Shown: one piece after another, positions 11,068-15,411 of the stretch
Layout of the letters: each line of letters starts with the position of its first letter
Numbering within the stretch: the stretch's first letter is position 1
Assembly (NCBI GenBank): GCA_012837385.1
Contig: DURH01000020.1
Location: 233,140 to 297,139, forward strand
DNA from: Bacillota bacterium
Lineage (GTDB): Bacteria; Bacillota; Limnochordia; Darwinibacteriales; Darwinibacteriaceae
DNA: 64,000 nucleotides
Direction of reading: 5' to 3'
The notes under the pieces: model-generated
Database searches by the model: none
Seen by the model: only the letters and a program-made list of their open reading frames with translations
Told to the model about the DNA's origin: nothing
Position numbers and translations under genes: made by a program

Positions 11068-11095
11068 AAAAAGGAAGCTGATGCTTCCTTTTTTT
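11066..11095. terminator. Bidirectional terminator between mutS2 and PBP gene
   Basis: AAAAAAAGGAAGC-TGAT-GCTTCCTTTTTTT. Confidence 0.85.
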
Positions 11096-13130
11096 ATTGG
11101 TTTAGGAACGGTATGCTCCGCCACCAGGGCTCTGAACAGCGGGGAGAATACTCTGTGGGTTCCGTTCCTGCAACAAAGATCTCGCGCCTGGTTTCTTCAG
11201 GCGGCAGATTGCAGTTGTCCCGCACCAGCAGACCGGTCTTGGTATCAATGAGGATGCCTTCCACTAAGCCGCTGGGCTTGGGAAAGTCGGTCACAGGATG
11301 GTTTTTGAGCGCTTCCTTCATGAAGTTGGCCCAAATAGTGGCTGCATTCCAGGAACCGTACTGCACCCCTTGATAGACCATGCGCCTTGGCGTGTCTTCG
11401 CCAAACCAGACCACGCCCACCAGGTCAGGTGTATAGCCCACAAACCAAGCATCCTGATAGTCGGAGTGGGTTCCTGTTTTTCCCGCTGCTGGCCGTCCAA
11501 TGTTGGCGTTTTTCCCGGTACCCCGTTCGATAACACCTCGCAGCATGTCAGTCATAATATAGCTGGTCTGCTCGCTGAGGACTACTTCATAGCGGGGGGA
11601 GCGTTCCTCCAGAACATTCCCGTTGGAGTCTGTCACCTTCCAGATGGCGAAGGGCTCGGTCTTAATTCCTTGGTTGGCCAGGACACCATAGGCAGTGGCC
11701 ATTTCGAGGAGAGACACCCCCTTGGTCATGCCCCCTAGAGCCAAGGGGGCGAGCCCTATGTCGTTTACCCTGCCTTGTTCCACAAAAGTGGTGATCCCCA
11801 TGCGCTTGGCATAGTCGATCACTGTTTGGGGACCCAGCTCATCCACAATCTGGGCAGCAATGACGTTTAGGGAATCCTCCAGTGCTTCCCGCACTGTGAC
11901 AGGCCCTGCAAAGGTCTGATAGTAGTTCTGGGGGCTCCAGATTTCCCCAGTGATCAGCTTGAAATCAGTAGGCTCGTCAATATACACTTTGGCGGGGGTG
12001 ATGCCATTGTCTATGGCAGCAGTGTAAGGAAACACCTTAATCGCGGATCCAGGAGAACGCAAGGCCTGCACACTGCGGTTAAAGCTGTCTTCTCCTCGGC
12101 CCCCTACCATCACTCTGATCTCGCCCGTCTGAGGCACTATGGCCAGCACAGCGCCTTGGGGCTGAGTCAGATTTCCCTCATGGTTACGGTTGACGGGCAG
12201 TCCTTCCAGCAGAGCCTTTTCGGCTGCTTTCTGCATATCTAAGTCCAGGGTGGTATAGACATGCAGCCCTCCGCTGAACACAGCCGCTTCACCGTACTTT
12301 TCAACCAGATCCGCCACCACATAATCTACAAAGTAGCGGGCTTGAACAGTACGCTGCTGCCTTTCCGCGAGCACCAGGGGTTCAGCCTTAGCAGCGGCTG
12401 CTTCCTCTGGGGTAAGGTAGCCCACTTCCTGCATGCGGCTCAGCACGAAATCTCGCCGTTCCACGGCAATGTCTGGGTTGACGAATGGGGAGTACCTAGT
12501 GGGCCAGCGAATGACACCGGCAATTAGTGCCGCTTCACTCACCGTAAGGTCCTTAGCTGATTTTCCGAAAAAGGTTCTGGCCCCAGCCTCAATGCCATAG
12601 ACACCGTGATTTAGATAGAACTCATTGAGGTAGGCTTCAAGAATCTCATCCTTAGAATACTTGCGCTCGATCTGCACAGCCCACAGAAACTCTTCGAGTT
12701 TCCGCATGATGGTCTTATTCTGGGTCAAGAACACGTTGCGGGCCAGTTGCATGGTGATGGTGCCGCCGCCCTGGGAGAAGGACCACTCTTTGAGGTTGAC
12801 CAAGATCGCCCGGCCAAAGGCGATGAAATTGATGCCGTGATGGTTATAGAACTGATCGTCTTCAATAGCCACCACTGCGTTTTTCACATGGTCGGGCAGT
12901 TCGTTAATGTCCACTGGGATGCGGTTTTCTTTGTAAAGATCCGTGATTAAGCGGCCGTGTATATCATAGATGTAAGTAGTGAAGTTTTGATGGATGTTAA
13001 CCTGGTCTAAGCTGGGAGCACTGCCTAGATAGGCGGAAACCACGCCAGCAAAGGCACCCAGTAATGTGGAACCCAGGATCACTACTATATAAATGGCTGC
13101 CGTCCGTTTCTTCACCACATACACCCCCAA
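11094..13130 (-). CDS. Class A penicillin-binding protein (transglycosylase/transpeptidase, PBP1A family)
   Basis: 678 aa; AIEDDQFYNHHGIN, QGGGTITMQLARN, RSPGSAIKVFPY (SxxK), KTGTHSDYQDAWFVGYTP. Confidence 0.95.
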   Translation of the reverse strand: MGVYVVKKRTAAIYIVVILGSTLLGAFAGVVSAYLGSAPSLDQVNIHQNFTTYIYDIHGRLITDLYKENRIPVDINELPDHVKNAVVAIEDDQFYNHHGINFIAFGRAILVNLKEWSFSQGGGTITMQLARNVFLTQNKTIMRKLEEFLWAVQIERKYSKDEILEAYLNEFYLNHGVYGIEAGARTFFGKSAKDLTVSEAALIAGVIRWPTRYSPFVNPDIAVERRDFVLSRMQEVGYLTPEEAAAAKAEPLVLAERQQRTVQARYFVDYVVADLVEKYGEAAVFSGGLHVYTTLDLDMQKAAEKALLEGLPVNRNHEGNLTQPQGAVLAIVPQTGEIRVMVGGRGEDSFNRSVQALRSPGSAIKVFPYTAAIDNGITPAKVYIDEPTDFKLITGEIWSPQNYYQTFAGPVTVREALEDSLNVIAAQIVDELGPQTVIDYAKRMGITTFVEQGRVNDIGLAPLALGGMTKGVSLLEMATAYGVLANQGIKTEPFAIWKVTDSNGNVLEERSPRYEVVLSEQTSYIMTDMLRGVIERGTGKNANIGRPAAGKTGTHSDYQDAWFVGYTPDLVGVVWFGEDTPRRMVYQGVQYGSWNAATIWANFMKEALKNHPVTDFPKPSGLVEGILIDTKTGLLVRDNCNLPPEETRREIFVAGTEPTEYSPRCSEPWWRSIPFLNQ

Positions 13131-13233: not shown

Positions 13234-13920
13234 GTGGTACACTGGCAGGGGAAGAGCAGACCCACTTGGCGTACTTATTTAGGCCTGATACTTCTGATCC
13301 TGGTCTTGTTCGCAGTGCTGGCAACCATGGTTATGGAAAGCCGCCTAGCTCCCGTTTTGCACACTTGGGCGCGTACTAAGGCGGTGAATCTAGCCACTTC
13401 CGCCATTAACTTGGCGGTGGCGGAGATTATGGCGGGAACTATGAGCAGTGCCAAGATCGCCAGCGTAATCAGGGACGAAGTGGGCAGCCTCCAAGGAGTT
13501 CAGTATGATATGGGAGAAATAAACAGGGTGAGCAGCCAGGCCTCTCAGATGATTCTGCAGGCGTTGACTGACTTGGGTGAGGAGGCCTTTTCCATACCTG
13601 TGGGACTGCTCAGCGGTTTGGATTTCCTGGCCGCTTGGGGTCCCGGAATTCCTGTGCGGATGATTCCCGCCGGGGCTCTAACTGCAAAACCGGTGGCCAG
13701 TTTTGAAAGCGCTGGCATTAATCAAACATGGCACAGAGTGTTCCTTGATCTGCAAGTGACCATGAGGGTTGCGGCTCCCCTGATGGTAGACGAAATCGTG
13801 GTGGCAGCTCGGATCCCCATTGTCGAAGAAGTGTTCATGGGCGCAGTGCCCAGCTGGTATTTTGCTGGCCAGGAGAACCTCACCCTGAGAGATGGCCGTT
13901 TAGAGTTTCCTTTGAATTGA
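13234..13920 (+). CDS. yunB: Sporulation protein YunB
   Basis: 228 aa; N-terminal TM; ATSAINLAVAEIM, GIPVRMIPAGAL, MVDEIVVAARIPIVEEVFMGAVPSWY; GTG start with SD GGGAGGTGAG. Confidence 0.85.
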   Translation: MVHWQGKSRPTWRTYLGLILLILVLFAVLATMVMESRLAPVLHTWARTKAVNLATSAINLAVAEIMAGTMSSAKIASVIRDEVGSLQGVQYDMGEINRVSSQASQMILQALTDLGEEAFSIPVGLLSGLDFLAAWGPGIPVRMIPAGALTAKPVASFESAGINQTWHRVFLDLQVTMRVAAPLMVDEIVVAARIPIVEEVFMGAVPSWYFAGQENLTLRDGRLEFPLN

Positions 13921-13929
13921 GGGTAGTTC

Positions 13930-14733
13930 ATGCAGCGCTACAATCACAGTCTGGTAGAGAGAAAATGGCTGAGTATCGTGTCCCAGGAGAAGCACCAAAA
14001 GGATAGCCTTCCGAGGGTGGGTACCGTGTTGGTTCCAGGTGATTCGGAGGCGGTGGAGCTGGAAAATGCCAGGCTCCTGGTACTGGCGGATTTCTTTGCT
14101 TCGGTTCGCTGGGGAAGGGATTTCCGGCATGAAGTGGTGAGCGGGGACGGCCGCCTGATGAGATCAATTGAGCGCCTGGGAATAATCTGGCGCCCTGCAG
14201 AGCAAGGCTGCAGCTGGGACTTTGCAGTTGCGCCCCGAGATTTCCCGCACCTGAGCGGCAGTTTGCCCTGCAGCGAAACCTTTCTGTGCGGCCGCTTGCT
14301 GGAAGGGATGGCCCTCAGTGATCTACTGCTTGACTTTGGTGGAGACGCTCTGCGCATTTACTTTTTGTTCCAGGGCCCGCCTGAGCGTGATTACAGGTTC
14401 AACTGGCGGAACTTGGTGAGTGCCCACCGCTTTGTGCAGAGGGTATGGCGCCTCGGGCAGAAGGTTGAGGCCGCAGGTTCAGAAACCCAGGAGGGCCCTA
14501 TGGCGGAGTTGGCTGGAGTGGTACAAGCCCGGATAGCTCGCCGGAAGCCCCATACCGCTCTGGCAGCCATAATGGCTTTCCTACAAAACAAAACCGCCCT
14601 CTCAGAATGGGAAGTGAGAGTGGCGGCGGATATCTTGAAGCCATTTACGCCTTTTTTGAGCGCTGAACTATTGAGCTTGGTGGCGGCGGTCCAAGATGAT
14701 GATGGTGGGCAGCGTGATCAAGCAGATCGCTAA
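13930..14733 (+). CDS. Truncated/diverged leucyl-tRNA synthetase-like protein (no recognisable HIGH core, editing domain or KMSKS)
   Basis: MQRYNHSLVERKW resembles LeuRS N-terminus; GDALRIYFLFQGPPERDYRFNWRNLVSAHRFVQRVWRL resembles LeuRS GADTLRLYxMFMGPxxxD...RFLNRVWRL; KPHTALAAIMAFLQN and LKPFTPFLSAELL resemble the anticodon-binding domain; intact 267-aa ORF. Confidence 0.72.
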   Translation: MQRYNHSLVERKWLSIVSQEKHQKDSLPRVGTVLVPGDSEAVELENARLLVLADFFASVRWGRDFRHEVVSGDGRLMRSIERLGIIWRPAEQGCSWDFAVAPRDFPHLSGSLPCSETFLCGRLLEGMALSDLLLDFGGDALRIYFLFQGPPERDYRFNWRNLVSAHRFVQRVWRLGQKVEAAGSETQEGPMAELAGVVQARIARRKPHTALAAIMAFLQNKTALSEWEVRVAADILKPFTPFLSAELLSLVAAVQDDDGGQRDQADR

Positions 14734-15411
14734 GGCGATGATCTGACTGAGCACGAAGGGTCCGTACAGTTCGCTGTGCTGGCGAATGAAGTCCAGGAAA
14801 AACCTGACCAGGGAATGGAGGAACAGCACGCGGAAAAAAGCATACCCATGGTATTTGGGAGCCTTAGCCCATTTCCAGGCCAAGGGCAGAATTACAAGTG
14901 ATGCTGCCACCTCATACAGCTGGCTGGGATGCACAGGACCTAAGCTGGTGGGAAACTCCACACCCCAAGGCAGATTAGTAGGGGGGCCATAGAGCTCACC
15001 GCTGAGGAAGTTGCCTAAACGGATGAAAACGTGGCCCACGGGAAGAATGGGTGACGCGATATCCGCGAGCTGCCAGTATTTCAGCTGGTGCTTGCGCACA
15101 TAGAAAATGCCCACTACCATAATTGTAAAGATGGCACCATGGGAAGCCATACCACCCCTGGCGAAGATCTCCGCGGGATGTTCTAAGAAATAGCGCCAGT
15201 GGGGCAAGATTGCGCCCAGCCGGCTGCCGATGAGCCCAGTAAAAGCGCTTAGGAAGTAGAGATTCTCCACCAGTCTCTGATCAAGGCCGTGGAGTTTGGC
15301 GAAATATCTGCTTATATAAAAAGCTGCCACAAACGTGCAGGCCATTAATATTCCATACCAGTAGATATCTAGTGAACCAATGCTGAAGGCTATCGGAGCC
15401 ACCATGATCAC
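14668..15411 (-). CDS. lgt: Prolipoprotein diacylglyceryl transferase
   Basis: MACTFVAAFYISRYFAK, RGGMASHGAIF, GNFLSGELYGPPTNLPWGVEFP, HPSQLYE motifs. Confidence 0.96.
   Translation of the reverse strand: MIMVAPIAFSIGSLDIYWYGILMACTFVAAFYISRYFAKLHGLDQRLVENLYFLSAFTGLIGSRLGAILPHWRYFLEHPAEIFARGGMASHGAIFTIMVVGIFYVRKHQLKYWQLADIASPILPVGHVFIRLGNFLSGELYGPPTNLPWGVEFPTSLGPVHPSQLYEVAASLVILPLAWKWAKAPKYHGYAFFRVLFLHSLVRFFLDFIRQHSELYGPFVLSQIIALAICLITLPTIIILDRRHQAQ

Follow-up and report, generated by a model that had tools for sequence, protein, structure and literature searches.

Proteins which resemble synthetases but have taken over other tasks form a known class (PMC9437257). The HisRS-like protein HisZ is the regulatory subunit of HisG and combines a synthetase fold without adenylation with a regulatory role (PMC9437257). 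DALRD3, which acts with arginine tRNAs for METTL2, keeps the anticodon-binding domain of a synthetase without a recognisable synthetase catalytic motif (PMC7237682). Within the leucyl-tRNA synthetases (LeuRS), the LeuRS-I of Sulfolobaceae and the LeuRS2 of Halobacteria are second LeuRS-type proteins beside a working one, in which charging is lost or reduced; a strongly truncated bacterial relative of the class I synthetases is represented by GluQ-RS/YadB (PMC9437257).

The gene described here, termed X, encodes a LeuRS-derived protein which fits the class of HisZ and DALRD3 by the loss of the catalytic motifs and by purifying selection. Like LeuRS-I and LeuRS2 it occurs beside a working LeuRS; these are, however, nearly full-length, whereas X, at one third of their size, retains neither signature motif and is in all probability the displaced native gene. 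A regulatory role as in HisZ may be supposed for X as well, although HisZ has a class II fold and HisG as partner, while X belongs to class I and no such partner is known. DALRD3 is a vertebrate protein with the DALR domain of ArgRS, whereas X retains a Rossmann core, and GluQ-RS/YadB represents the opposite case, with catalysis kept and the anticodon domain lost. The closest relatives are the full-length LeuRS (TIGR00396) of the sister families f2 to f5, which share with X the colinear homology, the genomic slot, the Rossmann core and the helical bundle. In X, by contrast, HIGH is replaced, and KMSKS, the CP1 domain, the middle of the catalytic domain, the C-terminal domain and the T-box are gone. 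No LeuRS-derived protein of this architecture was described in the open-access literature searched.

Homology to LeuRS and lost parts

The window, i.e., the whole stretch of 64,000 nucleotides that was analysed, carries X downstream of the sporulation gene yunB. The relevant features are:

11094..13130, minus strand: penicillin-binding protein gene (pbp), divergent from yunB, within the conserved neighbourhood (gene order)
13234..13920, plus strand: yunB (sporulation protein YunB), upstream of X (TIGR02832, E=1.8e-39, over the curated cut-off)
13919..13923, plus strand: GAGGG, Shine-Dalgarno-like, overlapping the yunB stop codon (sequence)
13930..14733, plus strand: X, LeuRS-derived, without intact HIGH or KMSKS (profile, alignment and structure-model evidence)
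13939..14103, plus strand: residues 4-58, colinear with LeuRS 3-63, N-terminus to HIGH helix (hhalign)
14059..14073, plus strand: residues 44-48, L-E-N-A-R at the former HIGH; E45, N46 and R48 invariant in 20/20 (alignment)
14236..14241, plus strand: R103-D104, invariant, directly after strand 98-102 (alignment, model)
14290..14295, plus strand: G121-R122, invariant, after strand 117-120, at the former site preceding the KMSKS loop (alignment, model)
14317..14682, plus strand: residues 130-251, post-KMSKS stem-contact fold and anticodon-binding helical bundle (hhalign)
14545..14568, plus strand: KPHTALAA signature, P207-A213 invariant; K-L-N-T-A-x-S-A in LeuRS (alignment)
14668..15411, minus strand: lgt, convergent with X, right edge of the ancestral leuS slot (gene order)

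X is an intact frame of 267 aa which is read through without a stop, as the first-pass annotation had stated. The close coupling to yunB which was noticed there is also real: the start of X lies 9 nt downstream of the yunB stop at 13920, and the gap amounts to 7-18 nt in the relatives (a range which leaves out the figure for locus L044, where the yunB start is misplaced). A G-rich stretch like GAGGG is found in most relatives. The 3' ends of X and lgt overlap in antiparallel orientation by 66 nt (14668-14733), and nearly all relatives have such an overlap, of 27-96 nt.

A significant profile match to class I synthetases was found, and the similarity to LeuRS, first read from the sequence by eye, was recovered by several methods. 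X of the window matched the model TIGR00396 (leuS_bact) over residues 131-250 with E=1.3e-10; its score of 40 bits lies below the threshold for a working LeuRS (curated cut-off 548 bits). All 20 family members matched this model (20/20; best 3.8e-13). ValRS models matched X more weakly than the LeuRS model, and a Pfam search of X gave nothing above its cut-off. The profile of the X family matched LeuRS of the PDB with 6.8e-14. By hhalign against LeuRS of the sister families, residues 130-251 of X were aligned with LeuRS 588-713 (E=2e-20) and, as a second, colinear block, residues 4-58 with LeuRS 3-63 (E=6.7e-6); the N-terminal profile of X matched the LeuRS N-termini of f2 to f5 with values of 3e-5 to 0.0075. 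With homology to both the class Ia catalytic fold and the anticodon-binding bundle, X belongs evolutionarily to the class I synthetase superfamily.

Between the two blocks, the 71 residues 59-129 replace about 524 residues of LeuRS, and the CP1 editing domain is missing, in agreement with the first-pass annotation. Nothing in X matches LeuRS beyond about residue 713; the C-terminal domain is gone. The HIGH motif (HxGH) is not present, xLEN standing in its place in 20/20 members, and the KMSKS loop is deleted in all of them; HVGH and KMSKS are kept in the full-length LeuRS of f1, the family of the window, and of f2 to f5. Judged from these losses, aminoacylation by X is very unlikely, and its earlier description as a non-aminoacylating protein is very probably right. 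When other pieces of a native LeuRS were sought in the genome of the window with a sister-family LeuRS as query, the matches were confined to the foreign leuS, X and three further large frames resembling synthetases. No orphan LeuRS fragment was among them, and a relocation of the missing pieces within this genome was rejected. A separate full-length leuS, the presence of which had been proposed for confirmation, does exist.

Predicted fold and possible functions

An AlphaFold model of X was built from the 20-member alignment (pLDDT 88, pTM 0.88). It has strands at 29-33, 66-70, 98-102 and 117-120 and helices at 40-61 and 74-81, followed by the helical bundle, and its best PDB matches in Foldseek are LeuRS structures (3.5e-7). 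According to this model the Rossmann core is compressed, not removed. The earlier statement that 267 residues cannot accommodate the HIGH Rossmann fold has therefore to be corrected, as the model keeps four strands and helix 40-61, the former carrier of HIGH, which now reads xLENAR versus HVGHWR in LeuRS. The distant member L052 reached a pLDDT of 40 when folded as a single sequence, so that conservation of the fold rests on the aligned model.

Across the X family 31 residues are invariant. Twelve positions are near-invariant in X yet unlike the LeuRS residue, among them G to E45 and H to N46 (both inside HIGH), H to D135, L to P207 and N to H208, and R103, D104 and R122 are invariant within the rewritten middle of the protein. 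From their secondary-structure positions, E45/N46/R48, R103/D104 and G121/R122 would lie at helix starts and strand ends on the active-site side of the class I fold; R103-D104 is a possible counterpart of the GGxEH of LeuRS. The invariant residues E45, N46, R103, D104, R122, D135, P207 and H208 suggest a rebuilt site.

As to what such a site would do, we tentatively prefer, at clearly less than even odds, a non-catalytic protein in the style of HisZ, which senses a ligand or binds a partner and in which the old adenylate cleft would have been rebuilt as a binding site by new invariant polar residues at the former HIGH and at the ends of the Rossmann strands. This reading is ranked ahead of two others. 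An adaptor which binds tRNA and delivers tRNA(Leu), or a different RNA, to a partner, for which DALRD3 is a precedent (PMC7237682), would agree with the helical bundle being the best-preserved half of X and with the archaeal LeuRS-I and LeuRS2, which retain tRNA(Leu) binding with most or all charging lost (PMC9437257). We nevertheless consider it unlikely: the net charge of X is near zero and not conserved, and many of the new invariant residues are found at the former catalytic site, off the helical bundle. Moreover, X has neither a CP1 nor a C-terminal domain, and in bacterial LeuRS much of the contact with the tRNA is made by the C-terminal domain. Even less probable is a new small enzyme with a rebuilt class I Rossmann core (E45, N46, R48, R103, D104, R122, D135 and H208). 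The clustering of invariant polar residues where strands end and helices begin, on the side of the former active site, would fit such an enzyme, but no known catalytic motif was recognised, the Pfam search remained empty above its cut-off, and the invariance suits non-catalytic ligand binding equally well.

Gene order, origin and regulation

In f1 the gene order is mutS2(+), pbp(-), yunB(+), X(+), lgt(-), murG(+). The sister families f3 and f4, which belong to the order of f1, show yunB(+), a full-length leuS(+) and then lgt(-), and f5, which lacks yunB, a full-length leuS(+) followed by lgt(-). The leuS genes in this slot have intact HIGH and KMSKS in f3, f4 and f5 and are followed, contig permitting, by the convergent lgt and by murG. 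The full-length leuS of f1 sits away from the yunB-lgt slot, and in the tree its LeuRS forms a clade of its own with two CPR sequences (support 100), apart from f2 to f5. Since the slot is occupied by leuS in the sister families and f1 carries a leuS of a foreign clade, X is most likely the native leuS reduced in situ. We regard it as very probable that X is the native leuS of the order, still in the yunB-lgt slot and displaced by a foreign full-length LeuRS. The full-length genes of f1 (L142, L145, L158) group with Falkowbacteria and Staskawiczbacteria (CPR; support 100); the transfer may have run in either direction.

Synteny carries most of the weight in this assignment. Sequence comparison points the same way, with a mean identity of X of 28% to the LeuRS of f2 to f5 versus 24% to that of f1, the former being nearer in 20/20 members, and with 13 discriminating columns siding with f2 to f5 and four with f1. 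A topology joining X with f1 LeuRS was marginally rejected (p-AU 0.0475, lnL 20 worse); those joining X with f2 to f5 LeuRS (p-AU 0.143) or with f1 and CPR LeuRS (p-AU 0.277) were not rejected. A nesting of X inside the f2 to f5 LeuRS was not recovered by the tree alone, because the branch of X is very long.

The term paralog used in the first-pass annotation is not retained, as synteny and trees favour a native leuS which was displaced, the canonical enzyme being the newcomer. It would require that X arose by duplication of leuS and was later moved beside yunB. A second, full-length leuS in the genome and the unrejected grouping of X with f1 and CPR LeuRS would be in line with such an event; X, however, occupies the exact leuS slot of the sister families with identical flanking genes, its identity is higher to their LeuRS, and the f1 LeuRS is a member of another clade, so that we consider a duplication very improbable. 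In the course of a displacement, the foreign full-length LeuRS (a xenolog) would have taken over tRNA charging in f1. The native leuS would then have been shortened by about 450 internal residues and by the C-terminal domain, to about one third of its original size, with loss of CP1, of the central part of the catalytic domain, of the KMSKS loop and of the T-box leader.

A T-box leader precedes leuS in genomes of f2, f3 and f5 and also the foreign leuS of f1; none was found at the yunB-X junction. In f4 there is a 27-nt gap ahead of leuS. The loss of the T-box leader and the close coupling to yunB are new compared with the sister families. Two genomes of f3 (L196 and L201) have a yunB-leuS region of 147-149 nt instead of about 350 nt; the middle of the T-box is missing, and a promoter-like stretch and a terminator-like end are kept, as if the leader were decaying. 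Near leuS of the f2 genome a THF riboswitch is located (L199, 1914-2011).

The adjacency of yunB and leuS is older than X, as it is present in the sister families, and therefore shows by itself no role in sporulation. Of the link to yunB proposed earlier, the close coupling stands. Expression of X at the sporulation stage is nevertheless plausible, because yunB is among the genes listed as down in a sigE mutant of C. difficile (PMC3789822) and SigE is encoded in this genome, over cut-off and within the window. As evidence of a sigma-E promoter for yunB-X, the conserved block ATTATAnCATAnAnT upstream of yunB is ambiguous, since it reads as the -10 element of such a promoter or as the extended -10 of the divergent pbp, and a consensus promoter scan gave nothing decisive. 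X would be made together with YunB, since it would now depend on the yunB transcript. That the displaced synthetase became a new sporulation-stage protein is a scenario which we put forward with considerable doubt: about two thirds of LeuRS would have been deleted to leave a minimal protein of Rossmann core and helical bundle, the adenylate cleft would have been adapted to another ligand or reaction, and control by leucine starvation through the T-box would have given way to expression from the yunB transcript.

Outside the window, a sigma-E/K-like sigma gene occurs in two halves about 4 kb apart (G000:C65:145820-150547; L209 521-5248). Read from the sequence, the frames between the halves are a 774-aa glycoside phosphorylase-like, a beta-phosphoglucomutase-like and a serine-recombinase-like one, and the insert looks like a compact skin-like element with sugar genes.

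Distribution, selection and meaning

X was detected in 22 of the 23 genomes of f1. It is complete in 20 of these, including one (G012) in which the aligned position carries no standard start codon; in G020 it is split over two contigs, and in G022 it is cut by the contig end. The slot is empty in G010 (75% complete), where yunB abuts lgt directly, and X has thus been dispensable at least once. Among 73 genomes of the class which were examined, no short form was found outside f1. A scan guided by patterns, which covered 85,462 genomes with each species represented once, gave high scores in f1 alone, including Peptococcaceae bacterium 1109, and full or partial LeuRS beyond the f1 loci, with a sensitivity limited by the patterns used. 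Peptococcaceae bacterium 1109 is placed in the GTDB class Limnochordia, family DTU010 (PMC8225771), from which we infer that f1 is this family; f1 comprises uncultured bacteria of the spore-former type. The same X locus was also seen in L045, on a contig labelled Mycobacteriales which is probably mis-binned, and in L046 from a Bacillota MAG.

Selective constraint, which the first-pass annotation had left to be examined, is visible in pairwise dN/dS values of 0.10-0.28 (0.02-0.21 for the neighbour genes); for the pair with the lowest saturation (dS 0.81), dN/dS is 0.25. The rate at which X evolves is several times that of its neighbours, and X is under purifying selection which is weaker than theirs. 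No frame disruption was found in the 20 complete members, and apparent internal stops fall past the true C-terminus, outside the gene. A slowly decaying, functionless leuS pseudogene, as might be suspected from the fast evolution of X and its absence from one genome, is extremely improbable in view of 20 intact frames at 34-58% identity, their dN/dS, the invariant residues and the confident fold, and was rejected on the intact frames and dN/dS. We consider it highly probable that X is a functional protein under purifying selection which no longer aminoacylates. For the explanation as a whole, comprising origin, status and function, our rough probability is 0.6.

It is well known that synthetases can be displaced horizontally, and as a rule one would expect the displaced copy to vanish. 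The unusual part is the in-place reduction of the displaced native gene, with the state before this reduction kept in the sister families. To our knowledge, X is the smallest LeuRS-derived protein in which both fold domains are recognisable. It offers a natural comparison for laboratory-made minimal synthetases and, with 30 kDa, is small and amenable to experiment. As the sister families represent the state before and f1 the state after at the same locus, the conversion of an essential enzyme becomes traceable step by step.
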